Of a DNA stretch of 64,000 nucleotides, positions 3,461 through 50,562 are shown in pieces. The stretch is taken from NCBI GenBank assembly GCA_002069125.1, contig MVZN01000005.1, forward strand, positions 1 to 64,000, in the 5' to 3' direction. Position numbers and translations under genes: made by a program. Source of the stretch: Spirochaetes bacterium ADurb.BinA120. GTDB lineage: Bacteria; Spirochaetota; UBA4802; UBA5368. The notes beneath the pieces were generated by a model. It was not told where the DNA came from, searched no databases, and worked only from the letters and a program-made list of their open reading frames with translations. How positions within the stretch are numbered: position 1 is the first letter of the stretch; the number at the start of each line of letters is the position of its first letter.

Positions 3461-4978
3461 TCAGTACCGCCGTAAGACGCCGAACATAGTGATCCTCCCG
3501 CCCTCGGGCTCATCCCTAATCCCCAGAAAGGGGGCAGGCGCTTCGTCCCAGCCGCCCGTCTCGCGATTATAGGTTTCGTATCCGCTTCGCATGAAGAAGG
3601 CCGAGGCTATGTCCGCAAGCTTAAGCGCTCCGAGCGCCCCCAATAAAAGGCCACCCCTGGCCTTTCCATCGAAATAATATGCGCTGGCGGCGCCGAGCGA
3701 CATCTCGGACAGAAAAAAGCCCCAGCCCGCAATCCTCTGCGCCTTGTAAAACTGGCCTCCTCCGGGGACGACGGCGGAGCAGAGCGCCGCGAAGGCGTTA
3801 CGGTCCTCGAAAAAGGGCGGCAGCGTCCCGGAGCGCGAAAACTGCACGGCGAGCTGGTCGAGGTAGGCCGCGCTCACCGTAAGGGGGGATGAGGCCCACA
3901 GAAAGATCTGCAGCCTCTGCATCTCGGGGGATTTGTCGGCATCGCGCTTCCATGGGAAAAAATGCGCCGAAAACCCCGTGGCAAGCGGCACCATCGAAAA
4001 CTGGAGGGCGAGGACCGACCCGGAAAGGGCAAGCCCTTGGGCGTCCGCCTTCGGGTCTTTGAATCCAAGATATCCGGTCGCCAGAAATGCGCCGTACACC
4101 GGCAGGCAGGCGTTGCCCCCGGGATTGACGATGCAGGCGCCTTCCAGATACCTCTTTCGCGGGTCGGAGTCCCGTATAAGCGCGGCGCCTGCGCCATATC
4201 GCGCCATCGTATTGTCGGAAATGCGCTTCTCATACAGGCGGGCAAGCGAGCGCACGTCCTGGTGGATAGGGATGGTGATCTTCGACCCGGCCGCGGGCAA
4301 GCCGGCCGTTGCCCGCGCCACCGACTCATATCGGCCACAGGATAGCACCTCGAGCTCGCCATGTCCCCGGAGCGGCCACCTGCCTTTGTCTAATCCATGC
4401 CATTGGCCCGCGCCCAGTATGAAGCACCCGTCTTCGAGCGGGGCAAGGACGGACGCCCGAACGGGCAAATCCCGATGCAGCATAACGGCGGCCAGCGCGA
4501 GCTTTTGCGGGATATTACCCATTATGCGGCTTTCAAACTCCGCCGTCCGCTTAAGACCCGCAAGCTCCTCCCGACGCGGCTCCGACCGCATCGTGGCGCG
4601 GTAGGCCTCCCCCATGCGCCGCAGCCCTATCACCAGATAGAGGTCCGCGTCGAGGCGGCGCGCCGCGGCCTCGTACGCATCGCCCGCCCGCTCCGCCCGC
4701 GCCCCCCCGAGGGCCCATCGCAGACGGTGCTCCTCCACCGGGACGAAGCGCCCGGAGCGGTCGAACGCCTCCCTGAGCACGGCCGCCGTCTCCGCCCCCA
4801 GCACTTCGAGCGCCGAATCCTCGGAGGGAAGCACGAATATCGCGACCCCTCCGGAGGGGGGATTCACCCGGATCTCGGCCGCATCGAGCGACGCCGCGGC
4901 CGCAAGCGTAACAAGCACCGCCATCGCGGCGCGCGTTACGGGGTTTCGCGAAAGGCGCGTATCGAGCGTCTTCATCAT
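3461..4978 (-). CDS. Secreted or envelope protein: TolB/CsgG-like N-terminal region plus DUF5683-like C-terminal membrane region
   Basis: The 505-residue protein has a signal peptide (VTRAAMAVLVTLAAAASLDA). Next comes an alpha/beta region of about 100 residues in which AVLREAFDRSGRF and DADLYLVIGL resemble the periplasmic FlgO/CsgG/TolB-type fold that detects or builds envelope complexes. The last 150 residues hold hydrophobic segments around PGGGQFYKAQRIAGWGFF, the glycine-rich PGxGQFYxGxxxxG signature seen in DUF5683-like proteins. Its ATG follows the TAG of the gene above without a gap, so the two are translationally coupled. The neighbour has the same build, which suggests an old duplication. 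Function is unknown; the fold comparison is mine and needs a profile search. Confidence 0.5.
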   Translation of the reverse strand: MMKTLDTRLSRNPVTRAAMAVLVTLAAAASLDAAEIRVNPPSGGVAIFVLPSEDSALEVLGAETAAVLREAFDRSGRFVPVEEHRLRWALGGARAERAGDAYEAAARRLDADLYLVIGLRRMGEAYRATMRSEPRREELAGLKRTAEFESRIMGNIPQKLALAAVMLHRDLPVRASVLAPLEDGCFILGAGQWHGLDKGRWPLRGHGELEVLSCGRYESVARATAGLPAAGSKITIPIHQDVRSLARLYEKRISDNTMARYGAGAALIRDSDPRKRYLEGACIVNPGGNACLPVYGAFLATGYLGFKDPKADAQGLALSGSVLALQFSMVPLATGFSAHFFPWKRDADKSPEMQRLQIFLWASSPLTVSAAYLDQLAVQFSRSGTLPPFFEDRNAFAALCSAVVPGGGQFYKAQRIAGWGFFLSEMSLGAASAYYFDGKARGGLLLGALGALKLADIASAFFMRSGYETYNRETGGWDEAPAPFLGIRDEPEGGRITMFGVLRRY

Positions 4979-6517
4979 CTAAAACCTGTAACTCATTCTA
5001 AGGGCCGGGGTAAAGCCAGCTTCATCGGGCAATAGCTCAGGCGCGACCGAAAAGCGCTCCTCGCTCACCCGTCCGGCCGAGATGGAATGCCCCAGGAGGA
5101 GGACATGCGCCACCTCGACAATCTTGAGCGCGCCGAGGGCGCCCAGATACAGGCGCAGGCGGCCCCTGTCGCCCCGTGAACGGCGGTATGAATCCGCCGC
5201 CTCGTCGTAGCGCCAGGAGTATGAATACTCGCGAAGCGCCGAGTAAACGAGCGCGTTGTTGAGATGAAAATACAGGTAGCCCCAGAGGCGATATCCCTTG
5301 TAGAAATGCCCTCCGCCCCCGGAGATGGCCGAGAGAAAGACCGCTGTCGGCTCGCCCCCCACCACCGGTTGTGCGCCCCGGTAAAGCGCCGCGTCTCCCA
5401 GATAGCGGTGAGCGAAGGCGTCCACAAAGAGGGGGGCGCCCCCGGCGCAGAGCATGTACAGGGCGAAGTTATAACGCGCGGACGTATCGCGCGGGACATC
5501 GCGCTTTTCGCGCCGGATTACGGCAGGCCTGCGTAAAAGCCCGTCAGCCTCGAGATAGAGCCAGGGAGCGGCGTTTGCGGCCCACAGGGAGAGCCCCTCG
5601 AAATCCCCGTAGCGATAATGGCCCAGCGGGGCCATAAGCGGCATCGACGCGCTCGCGGGAACGCAAAAGAGCGCGGCGAGAACCGCGTCCGAATACCCCG
5701 GGTCCGCAAAGACCATCTCCTCCTTGCGGGACCGGTGCAGTCGCGCGGCCCGCGCCGCTCCGTCGCCGAGGTCCGCAAGCACGTAATCGCCGGCCCTGGG
5801 CTTGGCCGGGGCCAGGGCCTTCACCCTGCCGTCGGAATCGATCCTCACCTTTCCAACGGCCTCGTCCGCCCGTATCGAATACTCCGACGATTCCGGGGTC
5901 TTCGGCCTGAACAGCTCGTATTCACCGGCCTTTCCTTTGAAGCGTACCGCAAGCCCGCCCCCGCCGTCGTCCGAGAGGAGAACCGGCACCCTGAACTCAG
6001 AAAGGACCCCCGCCACGGCGCGGATCGCGTGCTCTTCAGAGATAAGGCCAAGCTCCCTCGGCCCCAGGGCCTCCGCCCCCCGGGGCAGCCCGGCACTGTA
6101 ACGATACAGCATCTTCCCGAAATAAGGAGCGTCGACTCCGTACGCCCGCACCTCGAAGCCCAGCCCGCCCGCATGCTCCTCGAGCCTTAAGCCCAATAAG
6201 AGCGAGACCCCCGCCGAGCGGGCGAAGCCGAGCCGGCAGGACTCGGTATCGCACCCGAAGCGCGCGAGCTGGTCCGCAAGCAGCGCACGGTCTATCTGGT
6301 CGAACGCTCCGGACGAGCGCAGGGCCCCCTCCAGCGAACCGGCAAACGCCTCCGCCAGTTGGTATTCGCGGGGAGATTTCGCCTGGAAAGCCGCCACCGC
6401 GACGATGGGCTTTTCGGCAAAGGCCGGGCCGGCCGAGGCGAGGGACAAAAGAGCCGCGAATACAGCGGAAAACCGCATCCATTGGGCTTTGCTTTTCGAT
6501 TTCAACAAGGAAGGCAT
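4979..6517 (-). CDS. Secreted or envelope protein, architectural paralogue of the downstream gene
   Basis: A signal peptide (FSAVFAALLSLASAGPAFA) precedes a region with KPIVAVAAFQAKSP and GVSLLLGLRLEEH, again a FlgO/CsgG/TolB-like pattern. A variable middle follows, then a C-terminal hydrophobic part with AISGGGGHFYKGYRLWGYLY, matching the GGGQFYK segment of the next gene. I chose ATG 6517 because it gives a basic n-region (KSKSK) before the hydrophobic core. GTG 6559 and ATG 6478 are also possible, and none has a good ribosome binding site. The gene ends in TAG directly abutting the next ATG. Function is unknown; a two-protein envelope assembly is an inference. Confidence 0.5.
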   Translation of the reverse strand: MPSLLKSKSKAQWMRFSAVFAALLSLASAGPAFAEKPIVAVAAFQAKSPREYQLAEAFAGSLEGALRSSGAFDQIDRALLADQLARFGCDTESCRLGFARSAGVSLLLGLRLEEHAGGLGFEVRAYGVDAPYFGKMLYRYSAGLPRGAEALGPRELGLISEEHAIRAVAGVLSEFRVPVLLSDDGGGGLAVRFKGKAGEYELFRPKTPESSEYSIRADEAVGKVRIDSDGRVKALAPAKPRAGDYVLADLGDGAARAARLHRSRKEEMVFADPGYSDAVLAALFCVPASASMPLMAPLGHYRYGDFEGLSLWAANAAPWLYLEADGLLRRPAVIRREKRDVPRDTSARYNFALYMLCAGGAPLFVDAFAHRYLGDAALYRGAQPVVGGEPTAVFLSAISGGGGHFYKGYRLWGYLYFHLNNALVYSALREYSYSWRYDEAADSYRRSRGDRGRLRLYLGALGALKIVEVAHVLLLGHSISAGRVSEERFSVAPELLPDEAGFTPALRMSYRF

Positions 6518-6733
6518 GACCGCACGAATACTACCCGCGCTCGGCTCAAGCGCAAGCACTTTACCGCGAGTGGATCGTCCGGGGGGAGTGAATTAATATT
6601 AATGGAGTGTTTAAAAAACGCGAAGCGGTGTGATTCCCTTGATATTAATCCTGCTGGAATTTGTGTCTACGACACTTCTTATTTCCATGATAGTATGCCG
6701 CATGGACAATTTTTATAAGCCTGAAGCACGGCA

Positions 6734-7331: not shown

Positions 7332-7538
7332 CCCTTTTGATAGATAGTATCATACTTGAAATGCGATGTCAATGATTATGATAATTGAATTCACATAACC
7401 TACGCGCCGAACGCCGAAATTTGGCTTTACGTTTCGGGCCATCATCCGTATTCTGGGCTCAATGGGGCCCGCATAAAACGCGGCGCAGCCTAAACAAGTG
7501 AAGATAACTCGAGGCGGCCTTTGGATTCAATCGTCACC

Positions 7539-8045
7539 ATGCGGCGTTTTACCTCCCCGGGGGATTTTCTGTCCCGCCTTATTGCCGTGTTCAGGGGGCC
7601 CTCGCTCATTTCGACACTGGCCGGAATCGACGGCCTTTTCCGCGAAAAGATACTGCTCACCGTAACGCTCGCCAACAACTGTCACACCTGAATGAACATC
7701 CACTCCGCCGTGGGCCGGAGGCTGGGGCTGAGCGAGGAGCGTATCGAGGAGCTCCTTCTGCTGGAACGCGAAAAGTTCGAATACCGGGAATGGCTTGCGC
7801 TTAGGTACGCGCAGGACCGCGCCTTCCTCGGGGGCGCCGAACCCGAGGGCCGGCACATCGAGGAGTATCGCCGGAACTACTCGAAGGAGGAACGGGCGCG
7901 TATCTCCAAGCTCGTAACGGCCATGCTGTTCGCAAACTACTGGAACAACACCTTCCGGCGAAAGGCGTGGAGGAAGGACAGGGAGGGGGCCGCCCTTTCC
8001 TGCCGCCTAAAAGACGAGCCGGATACGGACGGCGGATTCTCGTAA
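7539..8045 (+). CDS. AhpD/CMD-family selenoprotein (CxxU) read through an in-frame TGA
   Basis: Translation from ATG 7539 meets TGA at 7689-7691 and continues open to TAA at 8045, giving 168 residues. Around the TGA the protein reads ANNC-H-T-U-MNIHSA. The AhpD/carboxymuconolactone decarboxylase signature is E...CxxCxxxH, and here E36, C48, U51 and H55 fall exactly on it, with the TGA in place of the second cysteine. The text on both sides is well conserved for the family (GRRLGLSEERIEELL, FEYREWLALRYAQD, FANYWNN), so the gene is not decayed. A SECIS-like hairpin starts eight bases after the TGA. AhpD-like proteins are thiol peroxidase partners or disulfide reductants. selA, selB, selC and selD are in the same window. 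TTG 7521 is an alternative start. An internal ATG at 7692, directly after the TGA, misleads simple gene calling. Confidence 0.85.
7699..7726 (+). promoter_or_regulatory. SECIS-like hairpin of the AhpD-like selenoprotein
   Basis: TCCA + CTCCG pairs with CGGAG + TGGG across a two-base bulge (GC). The 8-base apical loop CCGTGGGC contains the GU that bacterial SelB usually recognises. The stem begins eight bases after the TGA, the usual distance for a bacterial SECIS lying inside the coding region. The pairing was done by eye. Confidence 0.65.
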
Positions 8046-46098: not shown

Positions 46099-47937
46099 TC
46101 AGGCCTTCATCCGGAAGTCGCCGATGCGCTTTATGAGCCCGTCGCCCTCCATCCTGTTCAGGAGGGGGATGATGAATTTCCTGGAGAGGGCGGTAACGTC
46201 CTTGGCCTCGGGGATGCTTATCTTGTCCCTTCCGTCGAAGAGCGCCATGACCCTTTTCTTCAGTTCGTCGTACACCTCGCGATGGAGGACGATATTGCCG
46301 TCCAGGCTAACGGCAAACCCCAGCCGGATAAGGTCGCCAAGGTGCCGCTTCTCGGCCTCGTCCGAGGTCTTGTCGAGCTCGGCCCCCTCGATGGAACGCG
46401 CGCGCAGCCCGTCGAGCGCCGCCCTCTTCTCGTCCGGGAGGGCCTCCACGGTGATGGAGTCCCCTCCAAAAAAGCGGCCGTCCTTTTCAATAATGCGGTG
46501 CTGACTCATTACGGAGGGCATTAGCACCCTGCAAAGCTCGAGGTCCCGTCCGGTCATGTCGGCTATTTCACGCAGGTTGGGACCGAGCGAGCCGGTAACG
46601 GCCCCGGCAATCGCGGAAATCGTCCCGGCGTGGTAATCGGCGTCGAGCAGGAAGTCCCCGGCCTTCACAACGGCTTTCCGCTCCATGAGAGTCTGGATGA
46701 CTTTTTCTATCGCGCGCTCGTTCTCGGGGAACATGGAGACGATCCGGGGCCACGGCACGGACCGCAGCACCGCGACGATATAGCGGATATACTCCTCCCG
46801 GGTGTAGCCGGAAAACAGCGAAAGGTGCGCGCGGACCATCCTCCGGCCCCCCGCCGAGCGGTAATCGGGTAAAAGCACCTCTCCGCCCCCGATTATACGG
46901 AAGCCTCCCGGATGCGTCACGATAAAGCGCTGCCCTGGATAGAAGTACCATGGAGAGTCGAAGCGGACGCGCAACACCCTTTCCTCGTCGTCGCGGTCCT
47001 CGTCATCGAGCAGGATGAGCTTCCCTTTTAGCGCGGTGGTCCCGATGAGCATCTCGATCCCCGTGTTGTTCTTAATCGCGCTGTTCTTTAGCTCGCCCCT
47101 GCGCTCGAGGAGCCTTATGCGCACCACCACGTCCGACGAGCGCGTAAAAAAATTCCTGCCTGTTACTATATCGCCCCGGCCGATCTCCTCGACGCCCACT
47201 CCGGACAGGTTTAGGGCGGTCCTCTGGGACGGCACACCCTCCCCGATCTCGGCGTGGTGGCTTTCAATTTTTTTCACCCGTACCTCTCGCTCGAGCGGAA
47301 GCAGGATGACCGGCTCGTCCTCGTTGAACCTCCCGTTTTTAAGCGTCCCCGTAACGATGGTGCCGTATCCCCTGGAGGCGAACACACGGTCGACGAAGAG
47401 ATAGGGTTTCTGGGAGTCCGTCGCCTTGTCGAGCCTTCTGAGGTTAGAGAGAATCGCCTCCCTTAGCTCCGGGACGCCCTCTCCGGTCCTGGCCGAGACG
47501 CGCACGATATCGCATCCGGCGTAACGCGTATCCCGCAGGCGCTCCTCGACCTCCGCGGTGACGAAGGAGATCATCTCCTCGTCCGCCGCGTCGATCTTGT
47601 TGAGGGCCACGACGATTCGCTCCACCCCGAGAAGCAAGAGCACGCGGAAATGGTCCTCGGTCTGGCGCATCCAGCCGTCGTCAACGGCCACGACCAGTAT
47701 GGCAAGGTCCACCCCCCAGGCACCCACCACCATATTGCGGATAAAACGCTCGTGGCCCGGGACATCTATTATGCTGACCTTGCCGAACTTCGGATACTCG
47801 ATGCTCGTAAAGCCGATATCGATAGTCATCGCGCGCGCCTTCTCCTCGGGGAGCCGGTCGCAGTCGTCGCCCGTAAGCGCACGGATGAGGCTGGTCTTGC
47901 CGTGATCTATGTGCCCCGAGGTCCCAACGATGTACAT
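46099..47937 (-). CDS. selB: Selenocysteine-specific elongation factor SelB
   Basis: SelB brings Sec-tRNA to UGA codons marked by a SECIS. The GTPase motifs are GTSGHIDHGKTSLIRALTG, the SelB-type DIGFTSIEYP, DVPGHERFIRNMV and ALNKIDAAD. EF-Tu-like domains 2 and 3 follow, then about 220 residues of winged-helix repeats at the C-terminus (AKDVTALSRKFIIPLLNRME) that bind the SECIS. 612 residues is normal. ATG overlaps the TGA of selA by one base. Confidence 0.96.
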   Translation of the reverse strand: MYIVGTSGHIDHGKTSLIRALTGDDCDRLPEEKARAMTIDIGFTSIEYPKFGKVSIIDVPGHERFIRNMVVGAWGVDLAILVVAVDDGWMRQTEDHFRVLLLLGVERIVVALNKIDAADEEMISFVTAEVEERLRDTRYAGCDIVRVSARTGEGVPELREAILSNLRRLDKATDSQKPYLFVDRVFASRGYGTIVTGTLKNGRFNEDEPVILLPLEREVRVKKIESHHAEIGEGVPSQRTALNLSGVGVEEIGRGDIVTGRNFFTRSSDVVVRIRLLERRGELKNSAIKNNTGIEMLIGTTALKGKLILLDDEDRDDEERVLRVRFDSPWYFYPGQRFIVTHPGGFRIIGGGEVLLPDYRSAGGRRMVRAHLSLFSGYTREEYIRYIVAVLRSVPWPRIVSMFPENERAIEKVIQTLMERKAVVKAGDFLLDADYHAGTISAIAGAVTGSLGPNLREIADMTGRDLELCRVLMPSVMSQHRIIEKDGRFFGGDSITVEALPDEKRAALDGLRARSIEGAELDKTSDEAEKRHLGDLIRLGFAVSLDGNIVLHREVYDELKKRVMALFDGRDKISIPEAKDVTALSRKFIIPLLNRMEGDGLIKRIGDFRMKA

Positions 47938-49316
47938 CAGTCGCCTCCGGCCAGCACCCTGTCTATGGACGCCGCGAGGACGGCGATATCGTCCGGAAAG
48001 ACCGTCCGAAGATCGAGCGTGTACCGGTCATCGAGAATATATCCCACCACCGGGACCTCCTCGTCGATAAATCGCGAGTAAAGCTCGGCCGCGCTCATGC
48101 CTGGCACGTCTATGCACACGCCGGCGCTCGCTATCTCACGGGTGGGGAGGGACCCGCCGCCGTAGGCGCTGCGTAGCGCGACCCGGTTTACGCGGTCTCT
48201 CTTTTCGGGGTTTTTCACCGCACGCAGCAGCCTTGCCGCCGCGCGCTCGATTTCGCGCACTTCCCGGCCGATAATCCCCCACAGCGCGAGCGATCCGGCC
48301 ACGCCGTTGGCGTATCGGAGCAGGGTCTCTTGAAGTATGAAGTAGGTGATCTTGTCCACGCGGAGCATGCGCATTAGCGGGTTCTTTCTGAGCGCCGAGA
48401 CGAGGTCCTTCCTGCCCACGATGATCCCCGCCTGGCATGCGCCGAGCAGCTTGTCGCCGCTGAAACAGACCAGGTCGGCCCCCTGGGAGAGCTCGAAGGC
48501 GACAGTCGGCTCGAAATCGTCTCCTGCGTATCCGTCGCGAAGCAGGTTGCCGCTTCCAAGGTCGCGCACCAGTAGAAGCCCGTCGCGCTTCAGCGCGGCC
48601 AGCTCCCTTAGAGAGGGCGAGGAGGCGAAGCCCTCCAGCGCGAAATTGGATCGGTGCGCCGAGAAGAGCATGGCGGTCCTTTCGCCGATGGCGCGGCGGT
48701 AGTCGTCGAGCTCCGTGATGTTGGTGGTCCCGACCTCAACGAGGCGCGCGCCCGACTGTTCCATGATGTCCGGTATGCGAAACCCTCCGCCGATCTGAAT
48801 GAGCTCGCCTCGCGAGACTACGACCTCCCGGCCCGCGCCGAACTCATTCAGAATGAGAAAAACGCTGGACGCGTTGTTGTTTACTATGAGCGCGTCCTCC
48901 GCCCCGGCAAGCCCGCATAAAAGCTCCTCGGCGTAGCCCCCGCGCCTGCCCCGGCGGCGCTCCGGCAGGAAGAGCTCCAGATTGCAATAGCCCCCGAGTT
49001 CCGACGCGAGTTTTTCGAGGATCTCGCGCGCGACAGGGGCGCGGCCCAGATTGGTATGGATGATGACGCCCGTGGCGTTGATGACGCGCTGAAGTTTTTC
49101 ACGACGCTTGAGGGCCAGGCGCCGGCCAATGTCCGCCCGTATGTCCTCCCGGGAGGGCGCGCCGCCGTCCCGTATCACCGCGCGGAAGGAGTCTATCGCC
49201 TCGCGTATAACGGACACGGCCGCGGGCCGGCCCAGCTCGGCGACATGCTCCGCCGCCTCCGCGAGAAGGGTTTCCACCTGTGGAATCGATCTGTAGAGGT
49301 TCCCGGTCTTTTCCAT
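47937..49316 (-). CDS. selA: L-seryl-tRNA(Sec) selenium transferase
   Basis: SelA turns Ser-tRNA(Sec) into Sec-tRNA(Sec) with PLP and selenophosphate. The PLP lysine is in CFSGDKLLGACQAGIIVGR; RVINATGVIIHTNLGRAP, VNNNASSVFLIL and VEVGTTNITELDDY are family hallmarks. I start at ATG 49316, giving 459 residues. The longer frame to 49445 runs across the tRNA-Sec gene and must be wrong. It lies 15 bases after selC and overlaps selB. Confidence 0.95.
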   Translation of the reverse strand: MEKTGNLYRSIPQVETLLAEAAEHVAELGRPAAVSVIREAIDSFRAVIRDGGAPSREDIRADIGRRLALKRREKLQRVINATGVIIHTNLGRAPVAREILEKLASELGGYCNLELFLPERRRGRRGGYAEELLCGLAGAEDALIVNNNASSVFLILNEFGAGREVVVSRGELIQIGGGFRIPDIMEQSGARLVEVGTTNITELDDYRRAIGERTAMLFSAHRSNFALEGFASSPSLRELAALKRDGLLLVRDLGSGNLLRDGYAGDDFEPTVAFELSQGADLVCFSGDKLLGACQAGIIVGRKDLVSALRKNPLMRMLRVDKITYFILQETLLRYANGVAGSLALWGIIGREVREIERAAARLLRAVKNPEKRDRVNRVALRSAYGGGSLPTREIASAGVCIDVPGMSAAELYSRFIDEEVPVVGYILDDRYTLDLRTVFPDDIAVLAASIDRVLAGGD

Positions 49317-49331
49317 GGAGACACAGCCATG

Positions 49332-49421
49332 CGGAAGGGGCAGGAATCGAACCTGCCGCTGCAATAAATTGCAGCCTACGGTTTTGAAGACCGCGGGGGC
49401 CACCGGACCCCATCCTCTTCC
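49332..49421 (-). tRNA. selC: tRNA-Sec, anticodon TCA
   Basis: On the minus strand the 90-base sequence begins GGAAGAGGATGGGGTCCGG and has the anticodon arm CGGTCTTCAAAACCG (anticodon TCA). A long variable arm (GGCTGCAATTTATTGCAGC) follows, then a T-arm GCAGGTTCGATTCCTGC and a 3' end CCCTTCCG with G at the discriminator. The acceptor arm has one A-C mismatch. CCA is not encoded. It sits between selD and selA on the same strand. Confidence 0.95.
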
Positions 49422-49494
49422 GGGTAAAGCGGCGACAAAGGCCATTTCTTTGTAGGCGGGGGCTCCGGCGGTGTCAATGATTTTTATACGGGGA

Positions 49495-50562
49495 TCAAAG
49501 CAGTCGGATTGCGGGTTGCTGTGAGCGCGTGACCGCGCCTATGCGGACGGCCGCCTTCACGCCGCGCCTGTGGAGCTCCTCCACAAGGCCTTCCGATTCG
49601 GCCGCGGGCAGCGCTACGAGGAGCCCTCCGGAGGTCTGGGGATCGAAGGCAATGTCGGCAAGCTCACGCCTGACATTCGGATCGATCGCGCAGAGGGGGC
49701 CTACATGATCGCGGTTACGGTACAGGCCGCCGGGCACAAAGCCCAGCGCCGCGCCCTCCACGGCGCCCGGAAGCAGGGGGAGCCTCGCGGCCTCGATGCT
49801 CACCTCGAGGCCGTCGTCCGCGAGCATCTCCCGCAGATGGCCCATCAGCCCGAAACCGGTGATGTCCGTGCAGGCATGCACCTCGAAGCCCTCCAGGACC
49901 GCCGCGGCATCGCGATTCAGCGTTCTCATGGTTTCGATAAACGGGGCAAGCGCGGCGGAATCGGACTCTCCGGCCTTAAGCGCGGTCCCTATTATCCCGG
50001 TTCCCAGCGGCTTCGTAAGCACCAGCGCGTCACCATCCTTAAGCCCGCGGTTCTTCAGCACCCTGTCGGGGTGACAGATGCCCGTTACAGCGACGCCATA
50101 TTTAAGCTCGTCGTCCTCCACGCTGTGTCCGCCCAGAAGCTGTACGCCCGCCTCTTTCAACACATTCAGACCGCCCTCAAGAATGCGTCCCAGTACATTT
50201 AGGCTGAAAACTCCAGTCGGGAAACATACGATATTCATGGCGGTGATGGGACGTCCCCCCATGGCGTAGACATCGGACAGGCCGTTGGCGACGGCGATCT
50301 GGCCGAAAACAAAGGGATCGTCCACGATGGGCGTGAAGAAATCCACCGTATTGATAAGCGCGATATCGTCGGTCAGACGGTATACGCCGGCATCGTCGCT
50401 GTTCTCCATGCCCACGATCACCCGATCGTCATAGGGGATGGAAAGGCGCCGCATCACCTGGGCCAGCTCCGCCGGCCCGATCTTGGAGGCTCAGCCGGCG
50501 CCCTTGACCGATTCGGTGAGGCGCCGCGCGTCGAGTTTCCCTGTGCCGCATGAATTTTCCAT
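49495..50562 (-). CDS. selD: Selenide, water dikinase containing selenocysteine (TGA at 50491-50493)
   Basis: SelD makes selenophosphate from selenide and ATP. The frame from ATG 50562 reads KGAG-U-ASKIGP across TGA 50493-50491; this aligns with GAGUGCKISP of Sec-type SelD (GCGCK in Cys forms), so U24 is the active site. The rest is intact: DDAGVYRLTDD, DVYAMGGRPITAMNIV, LLGGHSVEDDELKYG, LTKPLGTGI and DITGFGLMGHL. At 355 residues the length is normal (E. coli 347). Without read-through, the predicted gene begins at GTG 50457 and lacks the catalytic residue. ATG 50568 is an alternative start. A stable hairpin follows the TGA. It is followed by selC, selA and selB. Confidence 0.93.
50460..50478 (-). 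promoter_or_regulatory. SECIS-like hairpin in selD
   Basis: On the minus strand GGGCCGG pairs with CTGGCCC (7 bp, one G-U) around the loop CGGAG, starting 12 bases after the TGA. Position and stability suit a bacterial SECIS. The loop lacks the GU seen in the AhpD hairpin, so the exact SelB contact is uncertain. Confidence 0.5.

Follow-up and report, generated by a model that had tools for sequence, protein, structure and literature searches.

A predicted AhpD/CMD-like selenoprotein with a CxxU active site from one order of spirochaetes

The window, a 64,000-nucleotide stretch of spirochaete DNA, contains a forward-strand reading frame (7539–8045) that closes with TAA and includes a single in-frame TGA at 7689–7691, codon 51 of the frame. 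This locus raises the question of whether the TGA is a stop or is read as selenocysteine (Sec) in the active site of an AhpD/CMD-like protein. The program-made list of open reading frames (ORFs) starts at ATG 7692 and gives only the 117 residues downstream of the TGA, because an ATG adjoins it; the part with E36 and C48 is missing, and the sequence-only reading had rightly remarked that simple ORF calling loses the active-site half. The elements of the predicted gene are as follows:

7521–8045, + strand: predicted AhpD/CMD-like selenoprotein gene; 174 codons and a stop codon counted from TTG 7521, 168 codons from ATG 7539
7689–7691, + strand: predicted Sec codon TGA; TGA at this column in 16/16 orthologues, Cys in distant CxxC paralogues
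7644–7703, + strand: active-site segment E36...C48-H-T-U51-M-N-I-H55, with the predicted pattern E-x11-C-x2-U-x3-H (numbering from ATG 7539)

The N-termini of orthologues read MDSIVTMRRF or similar and, where inspected (L003), the ATG of such a start is preceded by a Shine–Dalgarno-like GGGAGG. The 5′ end in the window reads TTG GAT TCA ATC GTC ACC ATG. Since the N-termini of the relatives match this stretch, TTG 7521 is probably the start, rather than ATG 7539, with a predicted product of 174 aa. The frame and TGA position given earlier for a 168-residue product stand, but the length probably does not.

The read-through product matches the Pfam CMD domain (PF02627) with 29.6 bits, above the curated cut-off of 23, which places it in the CMD/AhpD superfamily, and the ahpD_dom model TIGR00778 with 29.3 bits (cut-off 27.8). 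The domain match extends across the TGA, covering residues 30–74. The model of true AhpD, TIGR00777, gave 13.3 bits, far below its cut-off of 191.95.

A search of 59 related genomes yielded 16 orthologues, the window's own included, and a search with a profile across 393 genomes from the phylum recovered the same 16. They belong to four families, all within one spirochaete order, and the relatives are 40–80% identical; the confinement to one order holds within the phylum, other phyla having been covered by the close-relative scan only. No relative was found in the plasmid and viral collections searched. One same-genus relative (L028) bears the name ‘Spirochaetes bacterium’ and stems from a sludge digester assembly. 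Every orthologue (16/16) has exactly one in-frame TGA, at an identical column, which is far beyond chance; E36, C48, position 51 and H55 are likewise invariant in all 16. No Cys orthologue was found among the 393 genomes; the closest matches with Cys are remote CxxC paralogues, at E values of 1e-18 or weaker, which lack the TGA. These paralogues carry Cys at the TGA column, as had been expected if the Sec reading were right, and together with the orthologues they confirm that the TGA falls exactly at the second Cys of the family CxxCxxxH motif. A UGA at a redox position that is Cys in homologues, as in bacterial selenoproteins, is thus found here. In a phylogenetic tree with an arbitrary root, the 16 Sec members lie on one side of a branch with support of 85/99, with no Cys member among them; the Cys row L043, a wrongly extracted poly-Lys segment on a long branch, falls outside the Sec group.

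Within the genus, third codon positions are the ones that change most often, upstream as well as downstream of the TGA, which indicates purifying selection on both sides. This is in keeping with the earlier statement that both flanks are conserved. A lone in-frame stop, in a draft genome that is fragmented, could point to a pseudogene, or to a sequencing or assembly error; however, the TGA is shared by 16 different species genomes and the sequence downstream of it is under purifying selection. A sequencing error at 7689–7691, which the sequence-only reading had named as a possible refutation along with an absence of homologues spanning the TGA, is excluded because 15 other genomes share the TGA, and the decayed-gene or error explanation as a whole has a negligible probability.

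The TGA could also be a true stop, with the downstream ATG opening a second cistron, so that two short proteins would be made. This is in keeping with the 117-aa ORF listed from that ATG and with the ATG that follows the TGA directly in the window and nine further orthologues. These ten members have Met immediately downstream of Sec, and L011–L016 have Val or Ile. The last six, however, have GTA (L011 and L012) or ATC or ATT (L013–L016) after the TGA, which are not usual starts, and still keep the conserved downstream protein, so a restart is not a general explanation; the TGA–ATG juxtaposition that misleads gene callers is therefore incidental. Two cistrons would, in addition, break up the active site, with C48 in one product and H55 in the other, and this arrangement is very improbable.

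A genome-wide reassignment of TGA to another amino acid is extremely unlikely, and no observation favoured it. TGA terminates 15 of the 29 long ORFs of the window and 111 TGG codons occur in those 29 ORFs, from which the genetic code is taken to be standard; several orthologues themselves terminate with TGA, and relatives have Cys at the TGA column.

Reading the TGA as Sec requires the corresponding machinery, which the sequence-only reading had placed in the same window; the models identify all four components there, as is characteristic of bacteria with selenoproteins:

46099–47937, − strand: SelB, Sec-specific elongation factor (TIGR00475, 296 bits, cut-off 242)
47937–49297, − strand: SelA, Sec synthase (TIGR00474, 479 bits); start approximate
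49331–49422, − strand: tRNA-Sec, anticodon TCA (ARAGORN; Rfam RF01852, 76 bits)
49495–50562, − strand: SelD (TIGR00476), itself a predicted selenoprotein (KGAGUASKI) with TGA at 50491–50493

The genes selD, tRNA-Sec, selA and selB are tightly clustered on a single strand. The ORF listed for SelA, 47937–49445 (−), is matched by the model from residue 51 and its first part overlies the tRNA gene; since the SelA model starts 50 residues into this ORF, tRNA-Sec lies directly upstream of selA. The ORF list also cuts SelD short, giving its start as GTG 50457, downstream of the TGA. Read-through of this TGA raises the TIGR00476 score from 346 bits (model positions 34–308) to 373.5 bits (1–308) and completes the N-terminus of the model, with a possible start at ATG 50562 (−); the window thus has a second gene for which Sec use is predicted. 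SelB is present in all 16 genomes with the orthologue, spread over two contigs in one and as a partial gene in another. Members of the order with a SelB search below the cut-off (for example, G009, G014, G016 and G018) have no CxxU copy.

In the published model of the bacterial SECIS (bSECIS), the upper stem has 4–16 bp, the loop has 3–9 nt with a G in its first two positions, the distance from UGA to loop is 16–37 nt and the minimum free energy is −7.5 kcal/mol or lower (PMC13188914). A candidate hairpin in the window fits this model:

7703–7720, + strand: candidate bacterial SECIS hairpin CUCCGCC-GUG-GG(C)CGGAG; loop GUG, 18 nt after the UGA, −7.7 kcal/mol

The earlier claim that a SECIS-like hairpin follows the TGA stands as regards this fit and the family signal described below, but in the window gene alone the hairpin does not surpass random synonymous codings (z −0.25), and the 81-nt stretch of the window is not more stable than its dinucleotide shuffles. 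Taken jointly, the 16 genes show post-UGA folding with z of −4.2 (+1 to +42) and −3.7 (+10 to +38) relative to synonymous recodings, and none of 2000 synonymous shuffles is as low. The 16-gene z is optimistic through relatedness, and the more cautious value, obtained with eight deep branches only, is about −2.3. Five slid control positions in the same genes have no excess of stability (z −0.4 to +1.6), and the same stretch in the Cys paralogues gives z +0.9. The bSECIS constraints are passed by 15/16 orthologues versus 1/11 Cys paralogues, a contrast that is partly one of G+C content, the rule being easily passed by G+C-rich sequences. In a fixed-register covariation comparison of the base pairing, the arms have bulges and the loop is shifted by 2 nt in two members. 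No match to the post-UGA stretch was found in Rfam at a permissive threshold. The support for a SECIS rests on the family of 16 and not on the single hairpin of the window; this family-level signal also answers the objection, foreseen at the outset, that close relatives might lack a conserved stem.

Genome comparison shows coding across the TGA, a UGA kept at the catalytic column, the presence of the machinery and unusually stable folding just after the UGA. The gene almost certainly encodes a selenoprotein, with Sec predicted at the second residue of the CxxC motif.

The product would be a small thiol peroxidase or disulfide reductase of the AhpD/CMD superfamily with the site C48-x-x-U51. The UGA would be recoded by SelB carrying Sec-tRNA-Sec, assisted by the hairpin in the next 40 nt of the mRNA, and Sec would thus actually be inserted. 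H55 and E36 would activate the Sec selenolate by way of an AhpD-type relay; the selenolate would then reduce a peroxide or disulfide, forming a selenenylsulfide with C48, and a thiol or dithiol donor of the cell would regenerate it. Sec as the peroxide-reacting residue, the substrate and the reductant are all presumptive. The invariant residues have the superfamily relay pattern E-x11-C-x2-C(U)-x3-H, with a spacing equal to that of the AhpD-like proton relay. The relay residues are Glu36, Cys48, Tyr50, Cys51 and His55 in Pseudomonas aeruginosa PA0269, which has weak peroxidase activity, and Glu118, Cys130, His132, Cys133 and His137 in Mycobacterium tuberculosis AhpD (PMC3141380). The spacing in both is identical to that of the spirochaete protein; both, however, have Cys in place of Sec, and the His132/Tyr50 position is occupied in the spirochaete protein by a small residue (T, A or G). 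An AlphaFold model from two sequences has a pLDDT of 47 and was left aside. Structure matches in the PDB are mostly uncharacterised proteins; the second-best is PA0269 (2o4d), and the matches include Bmp8, which has been named a debrominase.

Peroxidase activity of the product appears rather probable. Recoding could be right and the enzyme still be something other than a peroxidase, namely a disulfide or selenenylsulfide reductase, a dehalogenase or another CMD-superfamily enzyme. The functional variety of CMD members, the character of the PDB matches, Bmp8 included, and the missing His132/Tyr50 relay residue are consistent with this, whereas the invariant E-C-C(U)-H relay and the weak peroxidase activity of PA0269 speak against it; such a function is a serious possibility, at somewhat less than even chances.

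Clustering of neighbours by similarity found no gene conserved beside the selenoprotein gene across families. A domain scan of the window's own neighbours revealed no peroxiredoxin, and neither AhpC nor any other redox partner could be recognised adjoining the gene. The selenoprotein gene appears to stand alone, without an operon partner. The large adjacent ORFs 3461–4978 (−) and 4979–6559 (−) have no Pfam match; their relatives lie near the selenoprotein gene in same-genus and same-family genomes.

AhpD-like and CMD-like selenoproteins with a CxxU motif have been described since 2005 (PMC1088965, PMC2398784) and also appear in a 2026 review (PMC13188914); a 2006 survey names no AhpD-like protein among the selenoproteins of Treponema denticola (PMC1794560). 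The families from the Sargasso Sea and GOS data (PMC1088965, PMC2398784) share the superfamily Pfam02627/COG2128 with the spirochaete protein and likewise have CxxU, with Sec second in the redox motif and a bacterial SECIS after the UGA. Compared by description, they differ in having many Cys homologues, whereas none was found for the spirochaete subfamily, which occurs in one order. Among curated families with a CMD-type site, NF053654 (YciW-related (seleno)protein) is matched at E ≤ 0.01 by 16/16 members and NF041047 (GSU3128 family (seleno)protein) by 14/16; the window protein reaches 34 bits where the cut-off is 310 and 19 bits where it is 110, respectively, and is related to both families without being a member. 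The curated NCBIfam selenoprotein models miss the subfamily, so that database copies are probably mis-annotated.

CxxU selenoproteins of the AhpD/CMD type are thus already known, and the spirochaete subfamily is new and apparently Sec-only. Tentatively, it may represent an obligate-Sec branch that stands alone, lacking both AhpC as partner and the relay His/Tyr, with Sec throughout one spirochaete order, and it might possibly be a selenium peroxidase that is self-sufficient and acts on its own substrate. The predicted family adds a clean selenoprotein subfamily to the phylum, from a gene of which ordinary ORF calling leaves only the C-terminal part.
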